A stretch of 64,000 bases of DNA from Lysobacter soli. Its GTDB lineage: Bacteria > Pseudomonadota > Gammaproteobacteria > Xanthomonadales > Xanthomonadaceae. The stretch is from assembly GCF_003382285.1 (NCBI RefSeq), contig NZ_QTJR01000010.1, positions 62,001 to 126,000 on the forward strand, written 5' to 3'. Made by a program: the position numbers and the translations under genes. Below, in pieces: positions 30,124 to 36,635 of the stretch; position 1 is the stretch's first letter; each line of letters starts with the position of its first letter. The notes under the pieces were generated by a model. It made no database searches. It was not told the DNA's origin and saw only the letters and a program-made list of their open reading frames with translations.

Positions 30124-32649
<2,526 letters not shown>

Positions 32650-32722: not shown

Positions 32723-33820
32723 TCAGCAGGTGGTGATGGCGCCATGTTCCACGTGGAACCGGTGCACCGGAAAGTCGGACGGGAGGCCAGGCGGGGCTTC
32801 GGTGCCGGTGATGAACACCTGGGCACCACTGGATTGGAGGCGCGCCAGCACCCTTCCTTGATGGTGGCGATCGAGCTCGGATGCAAGGTCGTCGAGCGCG
32901 ACCACCGGCCATTCGCCTTGTATCTGGTCGTGGTGTTCAGCCTGAGCGAGCAGGGCCGCCAGCGCGGTGAGCTTCGATTGGCCGCGGGAGAGCGCCTCGC
33001 GCCCCGGCAGGTTCGCGAACATGACCCGCCAGTCCGCCCGATGTGGCCCCACACCGGTGTAGCCGGCGGCAAGGTCGCGCTCGCGGGACAGCAGCAACGC
33101 ATCGGCGAGCGACATCTCGTCGCGGCGCCAGCCGGGTGCGTACTCGAGGCGACTCAGGCCCAGCGCCGGGGCCAAGTCCGACAACAACGGCTCGAAGCGC
33201 ACTTGGAGGAGGTCAAGGTAGCGCTCGCGGAAACGGCTGAGCGGTTCTCCGGCCTCAGCGAGTTCGTGATCCCAGGCATCGAGCTGGGCGTCCCGGGCCC
33301 GGGCTTTGAGCAGCGCGTTCCGCTGCTTGAGGGCACGGCTGTATCGGCGCCACACCGGGAGGAAGTCTGGTTCCACGTGGAACAGCCCCCAATCGAGGTA
33401 GCGCCGACGGGACTCACCGCCGCCGGTGATCAGCGCATGGCTCCCGGGTTCGAACGTCACCACGGCCAGCGCTGCGCAGAGATCCCCGAGCTGGGCGACG
33501 TTCGCGCCGTCGAGGCGACCGGTCCAATCCTGGCCGGTGTGACGAAGCCCGGCTTTCCGATGGCGTTCGTCGTCGCCCGAACGGCCCGTCCTTTCCCGCC
33601 ATTCGACGAATACCTCCAGGCCGGCGTCACCCGCCCGGATCAGCCCGTCGCGTACGCGTCCACGGAAGCTGCGGCCGTAAGCCATCAGATGCAAGGCTTC
33701 GAGCACGGTCGTCTTGCCCGCGCCGTTATCGCCGGTGATGAGGTTCAGGCCGGGGGCAGGGTCGAGGCGGAGATCCTGGAAGCGACGCAGATGGCGCAGC
33801 TCGAGTCGGGTGACGTGCAT
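32723..33820 (-). CDS. recF: DNA replication and repair protein RecF
   Basis: 365 residues. SMC-like ATPase that helps load RecA at single-strand gaps. Walker A GDNGAGKTT lies near residue 30, with LELRHLRRFQDLRLD before it; a signature-type motif SRGQSKLTALAALLAQAE and Walker B VVALDDLASELD are near the end. The frame contains two parS-like 16-mers read as FHVE, once in GLFHVEPD and once in RFHVEHG. The start is MHVTRLEL at 33820. It follows dnaN after a terminator, so its expression may depend on readthrough or its own promoter. Confidence 0.96.
   Translation of the reverse strand: MHVTRLELRHLRRFQDLRLDPAPGLNLITGDNGAGKTTVLEALHLMAYGRSFRGRVRDGLIRAGDAGLEVFVEWRERTGRSGDDERHRKAGLRHTGQDWTGRLDGANVAQLGDLCAALAVVTFEPGSHALITGGGESRRRYLDWGLFHVEPDFLPVWRRYSRALKQRNALLKARARDAQLDAWDHELAEAGEPLSRFRERYLDLLQVRFEPLLSDLAPALGLSRLEYAPGWRRDEMSLADALLLSRERDLAAGYTGVGPHRADWRVMFANLPGREALSRGQSKLTALAALLAQAEHHDQIQGEWPVVALDDLASELDRHHQGRVLARLQSSGAQVFITGTEAPPGLPSDFPVHRFHVEHGAITTC
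32745..32760. promoter_or_regulatory. parS-like ParB-binding site
   Basis: TGTTCCACGTGGAACC, a near-perfect palindrome. It matches 15 of 16 positions of the parS consensus TGTTnCACGTGnAACA. It lies inside the 3' end of recF, where it encodes FHVE. Confidence 0.8.
33369..33384. promoter_or_regulatory. parS-like ParB-binding site
   Basis: GGTTCCACGTGGAACA; its reverse complement is identical to the site at 32745 over all 16 bases. It lies in the middle of recF, again encoding FHVE. Confidence 0.8.
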
Positions 33821-33841
33821 CGGGACAAGTTTAGCGGAGGC

Positions 33842-33874
33842 CGAAAACAGAACGCCCGGCACGAGGCCGGGCGT
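33842..33874 (-). terminator. Terminator after dnaN
   Basis: On the minus strand: ACGCCCGGC, loop ctcgt, GCCGGGCGT followed by TCTGTTTTC. Nine-base-pair stem plus U-rich tail between dnaN and recF. Confidence 0.75.
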
Positions 33875-33877
33875 CGA

Positions 33878-33893
33878 TGTTTCACGTGGAACG
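33878..33893. promoter_or_regulatory. parS-like ParB-binding site
   Basis: TGTTTCACGTGGAACG, 15 of 16 matches to TGTTnCACGTGnAACA. It lies in the short gap between dnaN and recF, next to the dnaN terminator. Confidence 0.78.
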
Positions 33894-33899
33894 CGTGAA

Positions 33900-35000
33900 T
33901 CAGAGTCGCAGCGGCATCACGACGTGGCGGCAACGGTCGTTCGCCGCCTCACGCACCAGCGCCGAGGAGTTGGCATCGCGAAGCATGATGACCACGTGCT
34001 CGTCCTTCAGCGAGGTCAGCGCATCCAGCAGGTAGTTCACGTTGAACCCCACTGCCAGGTCGTCGACGCGCGTATCGGCCTCGACCTCTTCCTGCGCTTC
34101 TTCCTGCTCCGGGTTGTGCGCGCTGATCTTCAGCTGGCCCGGAGAAACTTCGAGGCGGACGCCGCGGTACTTCTCGTTGGACAGGATCGCGGCTCGCTGC
34201 AGCGAGGCGCGAAGGACCTCGCGATCGATCCGCACCTCACGGTCGGCACCGATCGGGATGACCGCCTCATAGTCCGGAAAGCGCCCATCGATCAGCTTGC
34301 TGGTGAAGGTGACATCGTCCCGCTTCACGCGAAGGTGGCCACGGCCCATTTCCAGCTCGAGCTCGCGCTCGCCGCCTTCCAGCAGGCGCTGCAGTTCCTG
34401 CACGCCCTTGCGCGGCACGATCAGCTGGCGCTTGGTCAACGCGCCGTTGTCGAGCGGCGATTCGCACAGCGCCAGGCGATGGCCGTCGGTAGCTACGCAG
34501 CGCAGGCTGGCTTCACGCAAGTCGAACAGCAGGCCGTTGAGGTAGTAACGGACGTCCTGCTGGGCCATCGCGAACGCCGTGCGCTCGATCAGTTCCTTCA
34601 GTGCGGCCTCGGGCACGCGGACGCGCTCATTGGCTTCGACCTCGTCGATCGACGGGAAGTCGTTCGCCGGCAGGCTCGACAGGGTGAAGCGGGAACGCCC
34701 GGCCTGCACCGTGATCTTTTCGGCCGACTGCGAGACGGTGACCTTGCTGCCGTCCGGCAGGGCGCGAACGATCTCGAACAGCTTGCGCGCGGGGATCGTC
34801 GTTTCGCCGTCCTGTGCGTCATCCACCAGAACGCGCGAGACCATCTCCACTTCCAGGTCGGTACCGGTCAGCGAGAGCTGGCCGTCCTTCACCTGTACCA
34901 GCAGGTTGGCCAGGACCGGCAGGGTCTGGCGGCGCTCGACGACGTTGACGACCTGAGCGAGCGGCTTGAGAAAGACTTCGCGTTGAAGGGAAAAACGCAT
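33900..35000 (-). CDS. dnaN: DNA polymerase III beta sliding clamp
   Basis: 366 residues, the standard length. Forms the dimeric ring that tethers DNA polymerase III. Three repeated clamp domains; recognisable stretches are FLKPLAQVVNVVERRQTLPV at the N-terminus, RFTLSSLPANDFPSI, and the C-terminal RDANSSALVREAANDRCRHV followed by VMPLRL, the conserved clamp end. A GACGGGG-like lead precedes the ATG. Its promoter probably lies in the dnaA-dnaN gap that also serves as origin. Confidence 0.98.
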   Translation of the reverse strand: MRFSLQREVFLKPLAQVVNVVERRQTLPVLANLLVQVKDGQLSLTGTDLEVEMVSRVLVDDAQDGETTIPARKLFEIVRALPDGSKVTVSQSAEKITVQAGRSRFTLSSLPANDFPSIDEVEANERVRVPEAALKELIERTAFAMAQQDVRYYLNGLLFDLREASLRCVATDGHRLALCESPLDNGALTKRQLIVPRKGVQELQRLLEGGERELELEMGRGHLRVKRDDVTFTSKLIDGRFPDYEAVIPIGADREVRIDREVLRASLQRAAILSNEKYRGVRLEVSPGQLKISAHNPEQEEAQEEVEADTRVDDLAVGFNVNYLLDALTSLKDEHVVIMLRDANSSALVREAANDRCRHVVMPLRL

Positions 35001-35300: not shown

Positions 35301-36635
35301 TCACTCGCTGAGCTTGCGGATCAGCTTGTCCCAGTCTTCGCGCAGCTTGCCGTCGGTTTCCATCAGCGTGCGGATCTGGCGGCACGCGTGCAGCACCGTG
35401 GTGTGGTCGCGGCCGGCGAACGCGTCGCCGATCTCCGGCAGGCTGTGCTCTGTCAGCTCCTTGGCCAGCGCCATCGCCATCTGGCGCGGACGCGCCAACG
35501 AGCGCGTGCGGCGCTTGGACAGCAGATCCTTCATCTGCAGGCCGTAGTAGTCGGCCACGGTCTTCTGGATGTTCGGGATGCCGATCGCCTGCTGCTGCGC
35601 GCGCAGCAGGTCGCGCAGGGTTTCCTGCGCGAATTCGACCGTGATCGCACGGCCGGTGAAGTTGGCGCGCGCGGCGAGCGTGTTGAGCGCGCCCTCCAGG
35701 TCGCGCACGTTGCTGCGCATCTTCTTGGCGAGCAGGAACGCGACTTCCTCGGGGATGTGCGCGCCGCGTTCGCGCGCCTTGCTCAGCACGATCTGCGCGC
35801 GCGTCTCGAAGTCCGGTGGCTCGATCGCCACGCTCAGGCCCCAGGCCAGGCGCGACTTCAGGCGCGGCTCCAGGCCTTCGACCTCGCGCGGATAGCGGTC
35901 GCAGGTCAGGATGATCTGCTGCTTGCCGTCGAACAGCGCGTTGAAGGTGTGGAAGAACTCCTCCTGCGTGCGGTCCTTGCCGGCGAAGAACTGGATGTCG
36001 TCGATCAGCAGCGCGTCGACCTGCTGGAACTGGCGCTTGAACGCGTCCATGGTCTTGTCCTGCAGCGACTTCATCATCGCGCTGAAGAACTGTTCGCTGC
36101 GCAGGTAGAGCACGCGCATGTTCGGATTCGCCGCGCGCATCGCGTTGCCGGCGGCGAACATCAGGTGCGTCTTGCCCAGGCCCGTGCCGCCGTACAGCAA
36201 CAGCGGGTTGTGCGCGCGATCGCCGGGCTTGAGCGAGGCCTGCCACGCGGCGGCGCGACCGAGCTGGTTGCTGCGGCCTTCGACGAAGTTCTCGAAGGTG
36301 TAGTGGTTGTCCAGGTGGCCGTTGAACGGCTCGCTCGGTGCGGCGCGCACCGGCGCGACCAGCGTGGCGGCTACGGCTTCCGGCACCGGCGCGGCGGCGC
36401 GCGGTAGGGAGCCGATCTCCAGGCTCACCTCGTCGCTGCCGGCGAAATGCGCGAGCAGCTCGCGGATGCGCGGCAGGTAGCGCTCGCGCACGTGTTCGAC
36501 CACGAACGCGTTGGGCGCGTAGAGCACCGTGGTGTCGTCTCGCCGCGTCGCCTGCAGGGGCTTGAGCCAGGTGTGGATATCCTCGGGCGGAAGTTCGGCT
36601 TCGAGGCGTTCGAGGCAGCGGGGCCAGGCATCCAT
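35301..36635 (-). CDS. dnaA: Chromosomal replication initiator DnaA
   Basis: 444 residues. Domain I (about 1-85; [20 protein letters not shown]), a short domain II linker rich in Ala/Pro, domain III AAA+ ATPase ([20 protein letters not shown]; Walker [11 protein letters not shown]; Walker [14 protein letters not shown]), and domain IV with the DnaA-box-recognition signature [14 protein letters not shown]. It opens oriC and regulates transcription. Start chosen at 36635 ([15 protein letters not shown]); an in-frame ATG at 36893 gives a non-homologous N-terminal extension. Two DnaA boxes upstream (36785, 36808) suggest autoregulation. Confidence 0.98.

Follow-up and report, generated by a model that had tools for sequence, protein, structure and literature searches.

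A probable chromosomal parS cluster in and beside recF of Lysobacter soli, and its likely imprint on RecF across the Gammaproteobacteria

Three palindromes of 16 bases lie in and beside recF in this stretch of Lysobacter soli DNA, two of them as coding sequence, and the question they raise is what they are and whether the DNA or the protein has been conserved here. We conclude, with a probability of roughly 0.95, that they are a chromosomal parS cluster (a centromere) serving ParB-ParA origin segregation, and that the DNA site fixes RecF peptides FHV(E/K). Their probable identity as parS follows from sequence, place and conservation, and ParB binding, spreading and segregation are proposed by analogy with characterised relatives.

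A preliminary description of the window (the whole 64 kb stretch that was analysed) had placed parS-like 16-mers at 32745, 33369 and 33878. We recovered all three at these positions (Table 1), each matching the 16-bp palindrome of chromosomal parS, TGTTNCACGTGNAACA, with one mismatch (15/16) and each having inner 14 bases that are exactly GTTNCACGTGNAAC. As described, two of them lie in the recF frame and encode FHVE both times, site A at RecF residues 355-358 and site B at residues 147-150, and the third occupies the dnaN-recF gap, downstream of dnaN and 6 bases from its stop codon. The claim that the 64 kb hold no comparable site elsewhere is also borne out, as the window has five matches to the consensus at up to three mismatches, against 1.28 expected, and the other two have three mismatches. 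When the whole genome was scanned (3,953,742 bases in 27 contigs, 99.99% complete), exact GTTNCACGTGNAAC was found three times, always at the two recF sites and the dnaN-recF gap, with no equal match outside the window and no exact match for a reversed-pattern control; at one mismatch four further places appear, giving seven in total versus eight for the control at the same setting. A chance origin is ruled out by the window and genome match counts, and the class sample described below also argues against it (500 exact sites versus 36 for the reversed-pattern control, sums made by hand). An RNA element and a tRNA were likewise rejected, with no Rfam match at the gathering threshold and no tRNA in the window.

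The sites sit in a neighbourhood of replication genes, with recF between dnaN and gyrB, dnaA beyond dnaN, and beside dnaA a gene that we take from its sequence to be rpmH. All three exact sites (3/3) cluster near oriC, within 1.15 kb beside dnaA-dnaN. They had been described as about 2 kb from oriC, a figure that is approximate: measured from the dnaA-dnaN gap they are 1.1-2.6 kb away, and from the dnaA-rpmH gap about 2.7-4.3 kb. The GC skew changes sign near 36.5-37 kb, close to the dnaA-rpmH gap, and a scan for DnaA-box-like matches returned few.

Table 1. Features of the recF region, in positions of the window.
Feature	Coordinates	Strand	Basis or remark
gyrB (start inferred)	30124..32589	-	NF011501 E 0, scanned as 30124-32586
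recF, host of sites A and B	32723..33820	-	TIGR00611 E 3.2e-97
parS-like site A (TGTTCCACGTGGAACC)	32745..32760	.	in recF near the 3' end; site 2 of the comparisons
parS-like site B (GGTTCCACGTGGAACA)	33369..33384	.	in recF; site 1 of the comparisons
parS-like site C (TGTTTCACGTGGAACG)	33878..33893	.	dnaN-recF gap
dnaN	33900..35000	-	TIGR00663 E 4.5e-103
dnaA (start inferred from start of profile match)	35301..36635	-	TIGR00362 E 7.4e-163

Both expected protein partners are present in the genome, away from the sites. The preliminary description saw no parA or parB in the window, and we agree: none occurs among the window's open reading frames that were looked at, and the single ParB match in the genome (TIGR00180, E 2.2e-60) is on another contig (C25). 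There an intact block has the order rsmG-parA-parB (L089:5200-7900), rsmG being our naming from its sequence, and the best match of the ParA is NF041546 at E 3e-35, below that profile's cut-off. The ParB has parS-type recognition residues, namely an arginine and a glycine in the helix-turn-helix that correspond to R173 and G201 of Caulobacter ParB, which the passages available from PMC7383237 tie to parS preference; positions were placed by counting between the residues G170, R173, N178, G201 and R204 listed in that source, and position 162 is H here versus the Q given in the same passages. The whole-genome scan found no exact parS near the parB locus, and parB, on a different contig, is separated from the sites by about 159 kb or more as judged by contig ends. 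In two Xanthomonas chromosomes, taking contig C1 of each genome as NZ_CP101417.1 and LR990730.1, parB and recF are about 572 kb and about 547 kb apart, respectively, and at such distances (0.55-0.57 Mb) parAB is far from the origin there while the sites stay. The genome thus departs from the usual parABS layout, in which only some kb separate parAB from oriC and parS, a layout that is customary without being defining.

Next, we examined codon use at the two coding sites among related recF genes. The best 80 of 561 relatives from a RecF search, by title nearly all Lysobacteraceae, were compared together with the window's gene (81 genes); because two of the six seed peptides of the search overlap the sites, the sampling of peptides has some bias, whereas that of codons should have none, the seeds having been back-translated into all codons. 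In every one of these best 80 of 561 loci (80/80), recF contains two exact sites and the DNA upstream of it at least one more, at a varying distance. At both recF sites, histidine is CAC, valine GTG and glutamate GAA in 81/81 genes (window plus best 80 of 561), whereas across the same 81 genes other conserved histidine columns have CAC in 34-52, other conserved valine columns have GTG in 25-59, and other conserved glutamate columns mix GAA and GAG, with glutamate elsewhere in these genes being GAG 928 times and GAA 876 times. Within the four FHVE codons of these genes the only synonymous change is TTC/TTT, at a free base of parS. The palindrome is therefore kept beyond what FHVE needs in 81/81 family genes (window plus best 80 of 561), which is the outcome that the preliminary description had proposed to look for in a recF alignment.

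Two observations on these loci stand apart from the codon comparison. Stenotrophomonas-type loci (L049, L051, L054, L058, L066, L069, L086 and L087) have an extra near-site (TGTTCCACGTGGAGCA, one mismatch) 47-72 bases from the upstream parS. Additionally, a contig titled Bacillus subtilis SK7B5 (L039) carries a Lysobacteraceae-type recF region with 69% RecF identity and a Stenotrophomonas-like site layout, and given this recF under a Bacillus title the record looks contaminated or mislabelled.

The comparison was extended to the class with a sample of 274 gammaproteobacterial genomes labelled as 171 families, in which recF was sought by TIGR00611. We analysed 222 recF genes from 221 genomes. 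The window's own gene is not among them, and the set also excludes 49 genomes with a poor best match (E 2e-13 or worse; probably not RecF) or none at all, and the recF fragments in G089, G111 and G163. Site 1 is exact in 180/222 genes and site 2 in 169/222, with both exact in 151, one in 47 and neither in 24; two exact sites are spaced by 597-669 bp, and by 606-636 bp in 145/151. Wherever the peptide is FHVE or FHVK, it is encoded as CAC-GTG-RAA in 180/185 cases at site 1 and 170/177 at site 2, where the codon use of the individual genes predicts 11.7 and 11.8 such cases, so that the alignment gives the same answer class-wide. FHVE (here FHVE or FHVK) kept with other codons, which had been named as the case that would count against the idea, is nearly absent (5/185 and 7/177 peptides, differing by one base each), and several of these peptides come from genomes where both sites changed alike. 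FHVK occurs in 27 genes at site 1 and 42 at site 2, its last codon always being AAA, and this charge reversal from glutamate to lysine (GAA/AAA) corresponds exactly to the free base of parS. The earlier proposal that parS fixes the peptide FHVE hence fits the codon data but needs amending, since the peptide is FHV(E/K), with its last residue set by that free base.

Loss of the site goes with drift of the peptide. None of the genes with at least two mismatches (35 at site 1 and 39 at site 2, two further genes in which a contig end truncates site 2 being outside this count) has FHVE or FHVK, and they have 32 different peptides in 35 genes at site 1 and 36 in 39 at site 2. Some of these genes are not plain losses, since a parS is present at a different position within recF or shortly behind it (in another frame in G106 and G132; also G043, G067, G120, G144, G147, G159 and G184), and in a few the recF frame itself is short or broken. 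We observe that the conserved unit is the full 14-mer GTTYCACGTGRAAC, not CACGTG alone, and the family and class codon tests indicate that at the two coding sites selection acts on the DNA rather than on the peptide.

Across all 274 genomes, exact parS is absent from 42, occurs once in 31, twice in 159, three times in 32 and more often in 10. Site location was compared in 220 genomes, leaving out one with two recF genes (G273) and cutting the frame at the recF start; at least one exact site is present in 203/220, all copies lie inside recF in 146/203, and both lie in recF in 126/147 genomes with exactly two, these counts covering exact copies only, as exact matching misses weaker sites. Two genomes, G119 and G274, have unusually many exact parS (12 and 8), and four with only a weak RecF match (G145, G158, G258, G269) have two exact parS 36-106 bp apart. 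In a phylum sample, a site-1 pattern that presupposes a DWG context, and so misses RecF with another context and parS elsewhere in recF, was found in 37/299 genomes, 36/87 within the class and 1/212 outside it. Among the 36 in-class matches, 31 read CACGTG and five, all of one genus, have FHSE or FHTE in non-parS codons; the sole match outside the class (G378) is not parS. In three alignments with solved RecF structures, site 1 faces different residues, and none of the three extends as far as site 2.

We also investigated genomes in which the sites differ. Eight ParB-bearing genomes without an exact recF site have near variants (G005, G008, G026, G033, G099, G168, G182, G224), and in G026, G099, G168 and G182 the same variant stands at both recF sites; G026 reads FHME twice and G099 FHMK twice, valine having become methionine in both peptides. 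Matches to the pattern GTTYYAYRTRRAAC, which takes in canonical and variant forms, are confined to the two recF sites in G005, G026, G033, G168 and G182. Besides those at the recF sites, G099 has two on other contigs that differ in form, G008 has three, and G224 has one 0.8 kb away; the reversed control hits one place in each of G005, G026, G033, G099 and G168 and none in G008, G182 and G224. ParB positions 171-172 depart from [KR][SN] in 6/13 genomes with variant or no sites versus 1/30 canonical ones (Fisher p = 0.0017), in a test that ignores kinship (G160 and G271 are congeneric) and with a motif class chosen after viewing. The 30 canonical ParB were taken by hand and include three genomes with one canonical and one variant site (G012, G056, G185), and the 13 include an 84% complete assembly (G246). 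The test leaves out G051, G190 and G115, and it uses one of two Xanthomonas sequences. Four genomes (G160, G271, G260, G263) have a ParB over the cut-off and no exact parS in the genome, and three of them have altered recognition-helix residues, a combination which suggests that the centromere sequence may have changed.

Presence and absence of the two partners gave a more mixed result. Seven recF-bearing genomes have no over-cut-off ParB, and exact parS is missing only from G175 and G254 among them; the other five (G040, G132, G133, G217, G228) keep some, and simple co-loss of ParB and recF parS is accordingly a mixed test (5 of 7 ParB-less genomes keep exact parS). Where parS is kept without a ParB match, the draft assemblies perhaps have a hidden ParB. 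The clearest contrast pairs G175, a one-contig genome in which no ParB turned up, exact parS is absent and both recF sites have decayed, with its congener G029, which has ParB and both recF sites exact. Furthermore, 13 genomes have ParB and neither a recF site nor a near variant (site 2 of G246 being cut by a contig end), with exact parS elsewhere in six of them and none in seven.

Other explanations of the palindromes have to be weighed against this evidence. If RecF needed FHVE and codon bias made CACGTG out of it, the palindromes would be a by-product of the protein, and the peptides are indeed kept in 81/81 family genes (window plus best 80 of 561). As a full explanation this is refuted by the family and class codon tests and we give it next to no weight: the codons are fixed at the two sites and mixed elsewhere (180/185 and 170/177 versus about 12), glutamate is GAA in all 81 genes (window plus best 80 of 561) though GAG and GAA are about equal elsewhere, the class-wide change to lysine in 27 and 42 genes always uses AAA, the peptide is not kept at two or more mismatches (some of those genes having parS elsewhere in or after recF), and the third site is outside any gene. 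CACGTG is also a common core for other regulators, so that a different CACGTG-binding factor could use the sites, a proposal just as improbable given that the conserved unit is the full 14-mer GTTYCACGTGRAAC, that both sites vary together in some genomes, and that the ParB helix is altered in 6/13 variant or no-site genomes versus 1/30 canonical ones (p = 0.0017, kinship ignored).

A mainly local role, in which the sites bind ParB and tune the dnaA-dnaN-recF-gyrB genes by silencing or SMC loading, is a little less improbable than these two and still very unlikely. In its favour, the passages available from PMC5521831 / PMC3909081 report that ParB excess in Pseudomonas aeruginosa lowers expression of genes beside parS1-4, but according to the same passages ParB at native levels represses genes next to the intergenic parS3/parS4 and not those next to the intragenic parS1/parS2. 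Moreover, one of parS1-4 is necessary and sufficient for P. aeruginosa segregation according to the abstract of PMC4368675, and the genome studied here has no other exact site for the segregation job. Under the centromere reading that we favour, ParB from the distant rsmG-parA-parB locus would nucleate on the three sites, load as a CTP-dependent clamp, spread over dnaA-dnaN-recF-gyrB and hand the newly copied origin to ParA, probably also to SMC. Two of the three sites are recF coding sequence and recur at matching codons in most of the recF genes sampled from the class, and selection for the site as DNA would fix the RecF peptides FHV(E/K). Counting against this reading are the mixed co-loss of ParB and recF sites, the 13 ParB-bearing genomes with neither a recF site nor a near variant, the match of only 36/87 class members to the site-1 pattern in the phylum sample, the H at ParB position 162 and the distant parAB.

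We further consider it likely that the ancestral centromere of the Gammaproteobacteria is a parS pair about 620 bp apart in recF, with the whole exact set there in most of the sampled recF-bearing genomes that have any exact parS, that it fixes two RecF tetrapeptides, and that a shift in ParB preference changes RecF (valine to methionine; glutamate to lysine within the canonical site). If this is true, the place of RecF beside oriC may be held partly by the centromere and not by the protein. In recF-borne parS, a DNA-level chromosome function apparently dictates amino acids of an unrelated conserved protein across a class, and the persistence of recF next to dnaN has a simple potential explanation. 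The same reading predicts where the centromere lies in Gammaproteobacteria that have yet to be studied and provides natural pairs of co-varying ParB and parS for work on specificity, and it cautions against taking the conserved FHVE of RecF for catalytic residues before this has been tested.

The Spo0J/parS system of Bacillus subtilis has the same 16-bp consensus, and its parS sites are not known to include the recF pair. In most described bacteria parAB lies near parS, whereas here it is far from the sites. The occurrence of parS in recF is as such already known, from P. aeruginosa, and parS is known at dnaN in Xanthomonas citri, as far as the excerpts of these accounts go; a class-wide account or a RecF imprint did not appear among the matches listed for parS and recF in the literature, the survey Livny 2007 being outside that scope. 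In P. aeruginosa, parS1 and parS2 are inside recF according to the passages available from PMC5521831 and PMC3909081, and the likeness, compared by description, is that of two parS in recF near oriC. PMC4368675 quotes the 16-bp parS consensus and reports that the intragenic parS were mutated without changing the proteins. P. aeruginosa has parS3/parS4 and a further six diverged sites, and its parAB genes lie about 7 kb from oriC (PMC5521831, PMC3909081, PMC4368675, each in excerpt), whereas the genome studied here has a third site in the dnaN-recF gap, no further exact site and parAB far away. X. citri belongs to the same bacterial family, and the passages of PMC3937727, citing Livny 2007, place a parS (TGTTCCACGTGGAACG) at the 3' end of its dnaN, the position of site C. 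That paper speaks of 'at least one' element and nowhere mentions recF, whereas the best 80 of 561 related loci, many of them from Xanthomonas, also carry the two recF sites.
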